Source: Olsenella sp. Marseille-P4559 (GTDB lineage Bacteria; Actinomycetota; Coriobacteriia; Coriobacteriales; Atopobiaceae). From it: DNA of 64,000 nt. Where the stretch lies: positions 1,223,501 through 1,287,500 of the forward strand of contig NZ_LR027573.1 of assembly GCF_900605015.1 (NCBI RefSeq), given 5' to 3'. Both the position numbers and the translations under genes were made by a program. This document shows positions 26,536-35,660 of this stretch, piece after piece (positions within the stretch are counted from its first letter, which is position 1; every line of letters begins with the position of its first letter). The notes below the pieces were generated by a model. The model searched no databases. It had not been told where the DNA came from and saw only the letters and a program-made list of their open reading frames with translations.

Positions 26536-27033
26536 ATGGGCCAGGCCAATCAGGACAGGACGGTTGATATCACGACGGACGATCTCCGCTTCATGCGGCT
26601 TGCCCTTGAAGAGGCCGATGCCGCTGCAAATGACGGCGAGGTACCGATAGGTGCCGTGGTGGTCTGCGACGGTCAGGTGGTCTCTCGTGCGCATAACCGT
26701 CGCGAGCAGGATGCAGACCCTGCTGCGCACGCCGAGTTTCTCGCCATGGAGGAGGCTGCCCGCGCACTGGGCCGTTGGCGGCTCTCTGGGTGCACCGTTT
26801 ACGTGACGCTTGAGCCCTGCCTCATGTGCGCAGGCCTCATGGTGAATGCCCGTGTTGACCGCTGCGTGTACGGCGCGCCTGACCCCAAGGGAGGCGCGCT
26901 GGGCACGCTCTTCGACGTGAGCCGCGACGCACGGCTCAACCATGCGTTTGAGGTGACGTCGGGCGTGCTTGCGGACGAGGCGGCAGAACGGCTGCGCTCG
27001 TTCTTCCGGGCGCAGCGGAAGGGCAGGGGGTAG
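26536..27033 (+). CDS. tadA: tRNA-specific adenosine deaminase
   Basis: The 165-residue enzyme deaminates A34 to inosine in tRNA-Arg(ACG), enabling wobble reading. The zinc site is complete: HAEF with the proton-shuttle Glu, and PCLMCAG with two Cys. The segment DGEVPIGAVVVCDGQVVSRAHN is typical. Length is normal. It is divergent from tRNA-Ser, with 72 bp between them. The four 20-bp tandem repeats start 34 bp after its stop. Confidence 0.93.
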   Translation: MGQANQDRTVDITTDDLRFMRLALEEADAAANDGEVPIGAVVVCDGQVVSRAHNRREQDADPAAHAEFLAMEEAARALGRWRLSGCTVYVTLEPCLMCAGLMVNARVDRCVYGAPDPKGGALGTLFDVSRDARLNHAFEVTSGVLADEAAERLRSFFRAQRKGRG

Positions 27034-27067: not shown

Positions 27068-27147
27068 GTGTAAGACGGTGCAAGTCCGTGTAAGACGGTA
27101 TAAAATCGTGTGAGACAGTATAAGTTCGTGCAAGACGGTACGAAATC
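27068..27147. repeat. Four 20-bp tandem repeats upstream of the AAA ATPase gene (family F)
   Basis: Units start at 27068, 27088, 27108 and 27128 with exact 20-bp period. The second unit reads GTGTAAGACGGTATAAAATC. The others differ at a few positions. The invariant parts are GTG, AGAC and GT. The array ends 19 bp before the ATPase start codon and therefore covers its promoter. A 20-bp period places all units on one face of the helix. Confidence 0.9.
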
Positions 27148-27166
27148 GTAGAGAGGCCGTGTCCCA

Positions 27167-28297
27167 ATGAACCCCTTCAAACCCACTGCCGGCAAAATGC
27201 CGCCCATCCTTATTGGTAGGGAGTCAGTCATCCGCGACTTTGAGGAGGCCCTGAATAACGGAGCCGGGGCGCCTGGGCGACTGATGCTCATCTCTGGACA
27301 ACGCGGGTTTGGCAAGACCGTCATGCTCACCGAGCTAGGCCGCATTGCGAAAAAGCACGATTGGGCCGTGGTGTCTGATACTGCATCTGATGGCCTGTGT
27401 GAGCGGCTGGTGGCTGCCCTTTCCTCGGGTGGCCCGCGGTTTGGCGGTGCCACGCTCAACCCCTCTGTGGGGGTTGGGGGAATGGTCTCTGCAAGCCTGG
27501 GCAGTATCAGCATCTCGCCCAACAGCACGGCCCTTACGCTGAGAGAGGCAATAGAAGCCAAGCTCAAGCGCATGCCAGACGGCAAGGGGGTCCTTTTCAC
27601 CATCGACGAGGCGCAGGCGGCTTCGGAGGAGGACCTTGTCGCTGTGGCCACGGCCATCCAGCACGTCCTGAGAGACGAGGACATGCGCGATGTGCCAGAT
27701 GCAAGGAAGCACGGTGTGGCGTTCGTGTTTGCCGCGCTGCCCTCGATGATAGACGAGGTGCTCAACAACAAGGTCCTCACCTTCTTGCGCCGCAGCCAGC
27801 AGCGGATGCTGGCAGAAGTTCCTCTCGCCGACGTTCGTGCCGCATATGTGGATGTGGTCAGGGAATCCGGCAAGCACATTAGTCAGGAGGATGCACTGGC
27901 CGCGGCGCGGGCGGCTGCTGGATACCCCTATATGGTCCAGCTCGTTGGCTACTACATGTGGCAGTCTGCAGAGCGCAGGGGCTCCTCGCTCATCGAACGA
28001 TCCGATGTCGAGCGCGGGGCTGATGACGCCGTGCTAGCGTTTGGCGAAGCGGTTTGTGCGCCAATCATGGATGGGCTCACTCCAGCGCAGCGGGAGTTTG
28101 TGAAGGCGGTTGCTGCCGACTCGCCAGATCCTGCAGCCGTGGCAGACATTGCTCGCCGGTGTAACAGGAGCTCAAGCTGGGTGAGCAAATATCGGGCAAG
28201 CCTCATCAAGGAGCACGTTGTCGAGGCTGCCGGCAAGGGCTATGTGCGCCTGTCGACGCCACATATGGCGGACTACCTTCGAGGGTCCTCGTGGTAG
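27167..28297 (+). CDS. Orc1/Cdc6-like AAA ATPase with C-terminal winged helix
   Basis: The 376-residue protein has a Walker A loop GQRGFGKT (residues 44-51) and Walker B LFTIDEAQ (about 143-150). The C-terminal region looks like a winged helix: ADIARRCNRSSSWVSKYRASL, then VVEAAGKGYVRLSTPHMADYL. This order is that of archaeal Orc1/Cdc6-type and related prokaryotic ATPases that bind DNA at repeats. Its own promoter region carries four 20-bp tandem repeats, plausibly its binding sites. It could be an autoregulator, a defence or TA component, or a remnant of a replicon. There is no adjacent replication, transfer or integrase gene. The ribosome site is weak (GAGAGG). Confidence 0.82.
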   Translation: MNPFKPTAGKMPPILIGRESVIRDFEEALNNGAGAPGRLMLISGQRGFGKTVMLTELGRIAKKHDWAVVSDTASDGLCERLVAALSSGGPRFGGATLNPSVGVGGMVSASLGSISISPNSTALTLREAIEAKLKRMPDGKGVLFTIDEAQAASEEDLVAVATAIQHVLRDEDMRDVPDARKHGVAFVFAALPSMIDEVLNNKVLTFLRRSQQRMLAEVPLADVRAAYVDVVRESGKHISQEDALAAARAAAGYPYMVQLVGYYMWQSAERRGSSLIERSDVERGADDAVLAFGEAVCAPIMDGLTPAQREFVKAVAADSPDPAAVADIARRCNRSSSWVSKYRASLIKEHVVEAAGKGYVRLSTPHMADYLRGSSW

Positions 28298-28316: not shown

Positions 28317-29606
28317 CTAGACTACCTGGAACACAAAGAAGTCCAGGTAGTGGGTCTCGGGGACACCCCAAAGGATGGGGTGGTCTGGAGCCTGCTGGCG
28401 CTCCTCAACCTGGCGCAGCTGGACGTTGGCGTCGTGCGCTGCCTCGGCGATGGCGCGGGCGAGAAGGTCGCGCGTCATGAAGTGGCTGCAGCTGCACGTT
28501 GCGAGGTAGCCACCACGCGGCAGGAGCCGCATGGCCAGTTCGTTGATCTCGCGGTAGCCGCGGGCCGCATGGACAACGGTGCCACGGCTCTTGGTGAAGG
28601 CCGGCGGGTCTAGGACGATAAGGTCGAAGGGTCCGCCCTCCTCGCGCAGGCGCTTCTTGTCAGAGGCAAGCGCTGGCAGGTACTCCAGTACATTTGCGCA
28701 GGTGAAGTCCATCTTTGGATCAAAGCCGTTGAGGCGGGCGTTCTCGCGTGCGAGGGCGATTGCCGTCTGGCTTACGTCGACCTCTCGCACGAACGCGGCA
28801 CCCCCTGCCGCTGCGTTGAGGCCAAATGGGCCCACGTGGCAGAAGCAGTCAAGCACACGTCGGCCGTAGGCCAGCCTGCGCACGGCGCGCCTGTTGTACT
28901 TCTGGTCGAGAAAGAAGCCGGTCTTCTGGCTGTTCTCGAGGTCGAGGTCGTAGGCAATGCCGTTCTCGCGCGCAATCACGCGGGTGGCCTCTGGCGCGGT
29001 ACAGCCGTTCTCGACCCACCAGCCCTTCTCCTGCGCGAGCCTCTCCTTGAGGCGCGATGGGGCGTCGTTTCTCTCGTAGATGCCACGGATGTCCTGGCCG
29101 TCGGTGCGCAGCACATCAAGGAGCAGCGGGTAGAGCGTGGGGCGAAGCTGCTGCATGCCAACGGTTCCCACCTGCGAGACCAGCACGTCTTCGTAGCGGT
29201 CGACAACAAGACCCGGGAAGCCGTCCGCCTCCGAGAAGAGCATGCGGCAGCAGTTGGTGTCTGGCTCGCAGCCGGGCAGCGAACACGGGCCCATGGTGGT
29301 CTTGCGATAGTCCCAGGCCCACTGGATCTTGCGGGCCCAGAACGCTTCGTCGATGCGGTCGTTGGCGTTTCGGCTCACCACGCGCACGCGGATTTTGCTC
29401 CGCTCGGAGAGAAGGCCCACTCCCTGCCAGGTGCCGTTCTCCTCGACCACGTCCACCACGTCACCGTTGTGCGTCGACCTCCCGCCTGCGCGCGACGGCT
29501 CAACACGGAGGACCTCGCCCTCGAAGACCCAGGGGTGTCCGCCGGCAAGGGCGCGTGCTGCCTTTCTTGTGATGATGACCTGCGGGTATGGGCGCTGCTG
29601 CTTCAT
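28317..29606 (-). CDS. RlmI-like 23S rRNA methyltransferase with PUA domain
   Basis: The 429-residue protein has an N-terminal PUA domain (KAARALAGGHPWVFEGEVLRVE) and a Rossmann methyltransferase domain. FPGLVVDRYEDVLVSQ is the RlmI-family central segment, VLDCFCHVGPFGLNAA is the SAM motif, and LIVLDPPAFTKSRG is motif IV. TCSCSHFM holds the catalytic Cys as in m5C methyltransferases of RlmI type. The likely reaction is m5C formation in 23S rRNA, at a position like 1962. It is convergent with the ATPase gene, the stops being 19 bp apart. Confidence 0.9.
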   Translation of the reverse strand: MKQQRPYPQVIITRKAARALAGGHPWVFEGEVLRVEPSRAGGRSTHNGDVVDVVEENGTWQGVGLLSERSKIRVRVVSRNANDRIDEAFWARKIQWAWDYRKTTMGPCSLPGCEPDTNCCRMLFSEADGFPGLVVDRYEDVLVSQVGTVGMQQLRPTLYPLLLDVLRTDGQDIRGIYERNDAPSRLKERLAQEKGWWVENGCTAPEATRVIARENGIAYDLDLENSQKTGFFLDQKYNRRAVRRLAYGRRVLDCFCHVGPFGLNAAAGGAAFVREVDVSQTAIALARENARLNGFDPKMDFTCANVLEYLPALASDKKRLREEGGPFDLIVLDPPAFTKSRGTVVHAARGYREINELAMRLLPRGGYLATCSCSHFMTRDLLARAIAEAAHDANVQLRQVEERQQAPDHPILWGVPETHYLDFFVFQVV

Positions 29607-34970: not shown

Positions 34971-35660
34971 ATGGCAGAAGGAAAGAAGAAGAGCAAGCTC
35001 AAGGTCGTTCTCATCGTCGTCGTTGCGCTGATTGTCATTTCCGCTATTGCCGGCAGAGGCTCAAAGGGGTCATCGTCCAGCAGTTCGTCAGCGCCTGCCT
35101 CGGAGACGACTCAGGAAAAGGCGACGCAGACGTCTGGCACGGATGGGGGTGACTCCTCGAAGGCCGATTCTCAGACGTCCACGACAGCAGCGGCGCCGAA
35201 AAACGATGTTCCGGCGGAATATACTTCCGCGCTGGCGCAGGCAACGTCTTACGCAAATCGGATGCACATGTCCAAGCAGGGGGTCTACGATCAGCTGACC
35301 TCTGAATACGGCGGTCAGTTCTCGGCCGAGGCCGCTCAGTACGCAATCGATAATGTGCAGACGGATTGGAACGCCAATGCGCTCGCAAAGGCAGAGAGCT
35401 ATTCCGACAAAATGCACATGTCCAAGCAGGGGATTTACGATCAGCTGACCTCCGAGAATGGCGAGCAGTTCACTGCCGATGAGGCGCAGTACGCTGTCGA
35501 CAACATCCAGGCTGATTGGAACGCCAACGCCTTGGCTAAGGCGAAGTCCTACCAGGATGACATGCACATGTCGCCAAGCGCAATCTACGATCAGCTCACG
35601 TCCGAGTACGGTGAGCAGTTCACCGCCGATGAGGCGCAGTACGCCATAGACAACCTGTAG
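34971..35660 (+). CDS. Ltp-family surface protein with three tandem repeats
   Basis: The 229-residue protein has an N-terminal membrane anchor (LKVVLIVVVALIVISAIAG) without an obvious lipobox. A Ser/Thr-rich spacer follows, then three repeats of about 47 residues, each with a MHMSKQGVYDQLTSEYG-type core and a DEAQYAIDN end. This matches the Ltp (host cell surface-exposed lipoprotein) domain. The Ltp protein of Streptococcus phage TP-J34 blocks DNA injection by superinfecting phages, but chromosomal relatives have unproven roles. Here it sits next to an HTH-kinase-HTH cluster and a shared palindrome, suggesting regulated expression. Confidence 0.85.
   Translation: MAEGKKKSKLKVVLIVVVALIVISAIAGRGSKGSSSSSSSAPASETTQEKATQTSGTDGGDSSKADSQTSTTAAAPKNDVPAEYTSALAQATSYANRMHMSKQGVYDQLTSEYGGQFSAEAAQYAIDNVQTDWNANALAKAESYSDKMHMSKQGIYDQLTSENGEQFTADEAQYAVDNIQADWNANALAKAKSYQDDMHMSPSAIYDQLTSEYGEQFTADEAQYAIDNL

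Follow-up and report, generated by a model that had tools for sequence, protein, structure and literature searches.

Why should an 80-bp run of tandem repeats stand directly before an ATPase gene in a bacterial chromosome, and is it read by the protein encoded behind it? The repeats occupy positions 27068 to 27147 of the 64,000-nucleotide stretch of Olsenella DNA analysed here, which we refer to as the window. A preliminary description of this DNA had taken them for four 20-bp units ahead of an Orc1/Cdc6-like ATPase gene and had offered two options, autoregulation or an iteron-initiator pair in a captured plasmid-like module. The locus contains the following features, with coordinates in the window and the basis of each assignment in parentheses.

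26536 to 27033, plus strand: tRNA adenosine deaminase gene (tadA-like), the upstream neighbor (context)
27068 to 27147, plus strand: decamer array of eight tandem units (consensus GTRYRANNNN, the last four bases alternating; apparent 4 x 20 bp)
27148 to 27166, plus strand: leader between the array and the start codon (sequence)
27167 to 28297, plus strand: AAA_16 ATPase with a C-terminal winged helix, 376 aa (ORF, profile, model and fold search)
27296 to 27319, plus strand: Walker A motif, GQRGFGKT, residues 44-51 (sequence)
27590 to 27610, plus strand: Walker B motif, LFTIDE, about residues 142-148 (sequence)
28073 to 28282, plus strand: C-terminal winged-helix domain, residues 303-372, co-varying with the array (model and covariation)
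28172 to 28210, plus strand: predicted recognition helix, residues 336-348 (secondary structure of the model)
28317 to 29606, minus strand: SAM-dependent methyltransferase with a PUA domain, the downstream convergent neighbor (context)

The preliminary description placed the repeats correctly but misjudged their unit. The array consists of eight head-to-tail decamers, in the order GTGTAAGACG GTGCAAGTCC GTGTAAGACG GTATAAAATC GTGTGAGACA GTATAAGTTC GTGCAAGACG GTACGAAATC, and its true unit is 10 bp, or one per helical turn. All eight begin with GT[AG][CT][AG]A. The last four bases alternate, in most cases between GACG-like and TTC/ATC-like endings, and it is this alternation that produces the apparent 20-bp period. 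With one decamer per turn, the earlier statement that all units face one side of the DNA holds, and the geometry would also fit the cooperative binding by the adjacent gene's product that had been suggested. The array fills 80 bp of the 133-bp gap between the end of the tadA-like gene (27033) and the ATPase start codon (27167). Its lag-20 self-match score is 30, whereas the 99th percentile is 9 for dinucleotide-shuffled sequence and 13 for control windows. A relaxed array pattern occurred just once in the 3.09-Mb genome (genome-wide checks of arrays were pattern searches). The leader contains a ribosome-binding-like GAGAGG at 27151-27156 that could be the ribosome-binding site of the gene.

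The Walker A and B motifs and the C-terminal winged helix noted previously were all found in the predicted protein. Residues G44, R46, G47, G49, K50 and T51 of Walker A, and D147 and E148 of Walker B, are invariant across the family alignment. The AlphaFold model (mean pLDDT 84) has an ATPase core followed by the winged helix. Residues 15-165 match the AAA_16 profile (PF13191) with 46.5 bits, above the cut-off of 32.6. The Pfam matches were limited to AAA-type ATPase profiles and a weak DNA-binding match, with no Orc/Cdc6, Rep or ATPase_2 (PF01637) profile up to E = 1. A search of NCBIfam returned chance-level matches only, and none of the PADLOC anti-phage families was matched.

Among solved structures the best fold matches were 2qen (Z 22.6), 2fna (Z 22.2) and the archaeal Orc2 1w5t (Z 21.9 over 327 residues); STAND proteins of the NLR and CED-4 kinds and further Orc/Cdc6 chains came next. 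As 1w5t lies within 1 Z unit of the other two, we regard these matches as tied. The archaeal STAND-like proteins PABY2304 (2qen) and SSO1545 (2fna) match the whole chain, core and C-terminal winged helix, over about 300 residues with 14-15% identity; both structures presumably belong to PF01637, a profile that the window ATPase does not match. Aeropyrum Orc2 (1w5t), with 12% identity, has the same arrangement of an AAA+ core and then a winged helix. The label “Orc1/Cdc6-like” thus fits the fold but not the sequence family. Judged by its sequence, the protein is an AAA_16 ATPase and not an Orc1/Cdc6 initiator.

To what extent do such arrays accompany the family? We examined the DNA upstream of 99 homologs, mostly from Coriobacteriia and Bifidobacteriaceae, with 1723 windows from the same loci as controls. 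The self-match score at lags of 9, 10, 19 or 20 had a median of 22 for the homologs compared with 5 for the controls. Eighty-eight percent of the homologs scored above the 99th percentile of the controls, and in 88 of the 99 the best lag was 9, 10, 19 or 20. When the upstream DNA was read, nearly every homolog had its own tandem array, of 3-14 units following one another in steps of 10 bp (231 steps), 9 bp (102 steps) or doubles of these. The units vary widely (GTRTAAGACG, TTTCTAnnn, AGGCGAAnnn, TTTTATATTC, TTTTGATATT, TGCTATAATT and AGGAAAAnn, for example); they are common to members of a subfamily across genera and unlike between paralogs of one genome. The window's genome has four copies of the ATPase gene. 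Pattern searches of this genome located three of the arrays, that of the window gene and those of two paralogs, nowhere but before their own gene. The fourth copy is preceded by only two units, which are of the AGGCGAA type. Among orthologs the array ranges from about 4 to 10 decamers.

Array orientation and position before the gene are fixed in every chromosomal context, and the median distance from array end to matched coding start is 40 bp. TATAAT-like hexamers (5/6 or better) are in moderate excess at the 3' edge of the arrays (47%, compared with 29% in shuffles). The ~40-bp distance, the fixed orientation and the hexamer excess together suggest that the array lies over or next to the promoter.

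The pairing of repeats and ATPase, previously described as unusual, is rather the family rule in this clade: the repeats accompany the gene in relatives, and a routine lack of them in homologs, which had been named as grounds for rejecting the link, was not seen there. On the other hand, none of 39 distant actinobacterial homologs (about 30% identity) had an array, so the feature is clade-specific and centred on Coriobacteriia and Bifidobacteriaceae. Some Micrococcales plasmids have weaker or shorter arrays before their homologs. Inverted repeats are weakly enriched before the distant homologs (p 0.019), and we do not claim them as an operator. On a Rhodococcus plasmid (L223), two long direct repeats (GGAAGCAATGAAACGACTAGTA), which are not decamers, were seen 200 bp before a distant homolog.

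The arrays and the proteins are also linked by covariation. The k-mer similarity of arrays climbs from 0.03 to 0.53 with winged-helix identity, and does so on the gene's own strand only. After overall identity was removed, the protein block best associated with the array was the winged helix (residues 305-374) at three k-mer sizes, while blocks in the ATPase core showed an association of about zero. The array sequence co-varies with the winged helix beyond overall relatedness, in other words, and the core does not. Partial correlations of the array with the whole ATPase domain are positive too, as expected from shared ancestry. In permutations within protein clusters, 0 of 200 reached the observed winged-helix contrast. 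Because the sequence pairs depend on one another, t values of single columns serve for description only, and the evidence consists of the permutation and block tests. The signal was significant for the whole winged helix and not for the recognition helix alone (top-20 test). Examples of helix and unit pairs among Bifidobacterium paralogs are YANxYRT with TTTTATATT, YA[S/G]xYRM with TTTTAGATT and YASRYRA with TTTTATGAA. Recognition of its own array by the ATPase is therefore well supported at the level of sequence comparison. An operator that co-varies with the DNA-binding domain is as expected of an autoregulated factor with a tandem operator; however, the winged-helix covariation alone fits autoregulation and other uses of a bound array alike.

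The genomic setting shows that the gene and its array form a solitary module whose sites differ between genera. No conserved neighbor, operon partner or partner effector gene was found around the homologs; the neighbors fell into 281 clusters, the larger of which were generic (ABC transporters, for example) or consisted of close relatives' genes, in a test whose ORF picker was crude and sometimes chose antisense frames. At least one copy of the ATPase was present in 27 of the 60 relatives examined, in a patchy distribution. The window locus lies about 66 kb from dnaA, with the paralogs elsewhere. Homologs also occur on plasmids, where those examined sit among cargo-like genes, and some of these plasmids have their own replicon typing or par genes. 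Phage records contained no homolog and viral contigs no copy of the window array; the one viral-contig match to a homolog is almost the same sequence as a Bifidobacterium breve megaplasmid. Two B. breve megaplasmid sequences (L217 and L218) match exactly over 11-kb stretches apart from 4 bp of gaps, and all of these gaps fall within the array of the ATPase gene; the array may be unstable, or A/T runs may have been misread in sequencing. Copy-number phase variation was considered, and is unsupported beyond the variation among orthologs and this one possibly erroneous pair.

In two congeneric genomes the ATPase gene has been deleted between the same neighbors and the array is well preserved. Both of these same-genus loci (L176 in G005 and L177 in G002) keep the array between tadA and the methyltransferase gene. 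At L176 a convergent DUF4143 gene fills the ATPase slot, and at L177 only remnants resembling DUF4143 repeats are left there. A decayed DUF4143 gene with a recognisable repeat array also lies beside the orthologous ATPase in a further genome (G007; L008, 600-1520, minus strand). The slot looks like a hotspot of gain and loss for both ATPase families.

Taken together, we consider it probable that the array is a private multi-site operator of the ATPase encoded behind it, occupied by one subunit per turn and autoregulating. As the array runs change in step with the DNA-binding domain, each of these genes most likely reads, and regulates, a private tag of its own. The C-terminal winged helix of each subunit would read one decamer, and subunits would line up in head-to-tail order with one for each helical turn (9-10 bp), a spacing that would place successive subunits nearly on one face of the DNA. 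The ATP-binding AAA domains would hold the subunits together in a cooperative, ATP-dependent assembly. The resulting helical oligomer would cover the promoter region of the gene and set its expression, repression being the more probable sign, and nucleotide or ligand state may switch it. The gene and array would travel as one solitary module, and because the unit sequence and the winged helix diverge together, paralogs could coexist in one cell without cross-talk. We infer autoregulation by the ATPase from these sequence features, and of the two options offered previously it would be the best fit. Some observations speak against the operator reading: the array is kept after gene loss in two genomes, where a pure operator would be needless (although these losses could be recent), a search of the window's leader for a consensus sigma-70 promoter gave none, and arrays are lacking in the 39 distant homologs.

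One alternative is that the ATPase reads the array but that its main job is to nucleate or anchor a filament in a conflict, immunity or partition-like process, the overlap with the promoter being incidental. A STAND-like fold common to NLR and CED-4 proteins, rapidly diversifying paralogs in patchy solitary modules, arrays that outlast their gene in two genomes, and homologs on plasmids are all consistent with it. However, such a role leaves the fixed orientation and position of the array before the start codon unaccounted for, and it finds no PADLOC match, partner effector gene or homolog in phage records, the lone viral-contig match being close to a megaplasmid. We judge it unlikely. It could further be speculated that many mutually orthogonal filaments operate in one lineage, with fast-diversifying solitary modules of a STAND-like ATPase and a one-site-per-turn array, each array nucleating an ATP-driven nucleoprotein switch with a new role in conflict, selfish maintenance or sensing; we offer this tentatively, as an idea with a modest chance of being correct.

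Two further alternatives were weighed. Under the iteron-initiator proposal, the locus would be a captured plasmid or secondary origin at which the ATPase melts DNA to start replication. Iteron plasmid replicons likewise have direct repeats adjoining the gene of the (here putative) binding protein, and the Orc1/Cdc6-type fold, the plasmid homologs and the location about 66 kb from dnaA could be cited in its favor. Yet those replicons encode a Rep domain and Orc1/Cdc6 proteins act at origin boxes, whereas this AAA_16 family matches no Rep or Orc/Cdc6 profile and has private arrays at promoters, fixed in orientation before the gene. Several paralogs occur per chromosome at scattered sites, each with its own array, the plasmid copies are cargo-like, and the gene can be lost, as in two genomes. 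This option of the preliminary description now appears very unlikely. Nor does a slippage-born microsatellite seem at all likely, that is, a phase-variable spacer in the promoter that the adjacent protein does not read. It would explain the variable copy number among orthologs and the 4-bp difference in the megaplasmid pair (if that is not a sequencing error), but the units are imperfect and yet in register, their sequence tracks the winged helix specifically, and simple slippage does not account for a period of 9-10 bp in units of unrelated sequence.

The operator model has precedents for its parts. BldC oligomerises head to tail on 9-bp direct repeats with one DNA turn per subunit (PMC11963761). 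Such winged-helix oligomers resemble the window family in their 9-10 bp direct repeats, and the subunit-per-turn geometry would be shared; however, the BldC type is small, has no ATPase, uses partly indirect readout and has many targets, in contrast to one private array. IniR is a signal-transduction ATPase from actinobacteria whose ATPase domain resembles SSO1545; it binds and activates a single operon promoter (PMC5760070). Direct repeats are reported to be important for SARP-LAL binding (PMC5930380). IniR, MalT and SARP-LAL likewise couple an ATPase to a DNA-binding domain, but they differ from the window ATPase in being large, in having several domains, sensor domains among them, and in activating other genes, and the sources consulted describe no conserved private array ahead of each paralog.

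Each of these elements is known separately: operators with tandem sites, winged-helix oligomers with one subunit per turn, and regulators with an ATPase. No description of arrays before such ATPases was found in the open-access literature, a scope that excludes many subscription journals, and as far as could be established a diversifying ATPase family with an array for nearly every member is undescribed. Coriobacteriia and Bifidobacteriaceae commonly carry these ATPases, which are usually annotated only as “ATP-binding protein”, and we found no role assigned to them. With a private array before each gene, a DNA target can be predicted for about a hundred members, so their specificity is testable at once. 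From the natural pairs of winged helix and decamer, a recognition code and a set of orthogonal regulators might be derived, and the arrays offer a tangible starting point for work on STAND-like and DUF4143 ATPases more broadly.

DUF4143 (PF13635) ATPases gave 14 matches in the window's own genome. In relatives (L147, L149, L151, L158, L159, L160, L166 and others) direct repeats with a 23-bp period often lie immediately ahead of their genes, with a best lag of 23 in 14 of the 27 examined, and the same principle may apply to them with this longer period. Two further repeats were seen in the window. An in-frame repeat at 35262-35654 (150-bp period, 2.6 copies) lies in a predicted protein (34971-35660) and each copy contains HMSKQGIYDQLTSE-like segments, and near the left end of the window, at 1199-1418, a 121-bp unit is directly repeated (1.8 copies, 86% matches).
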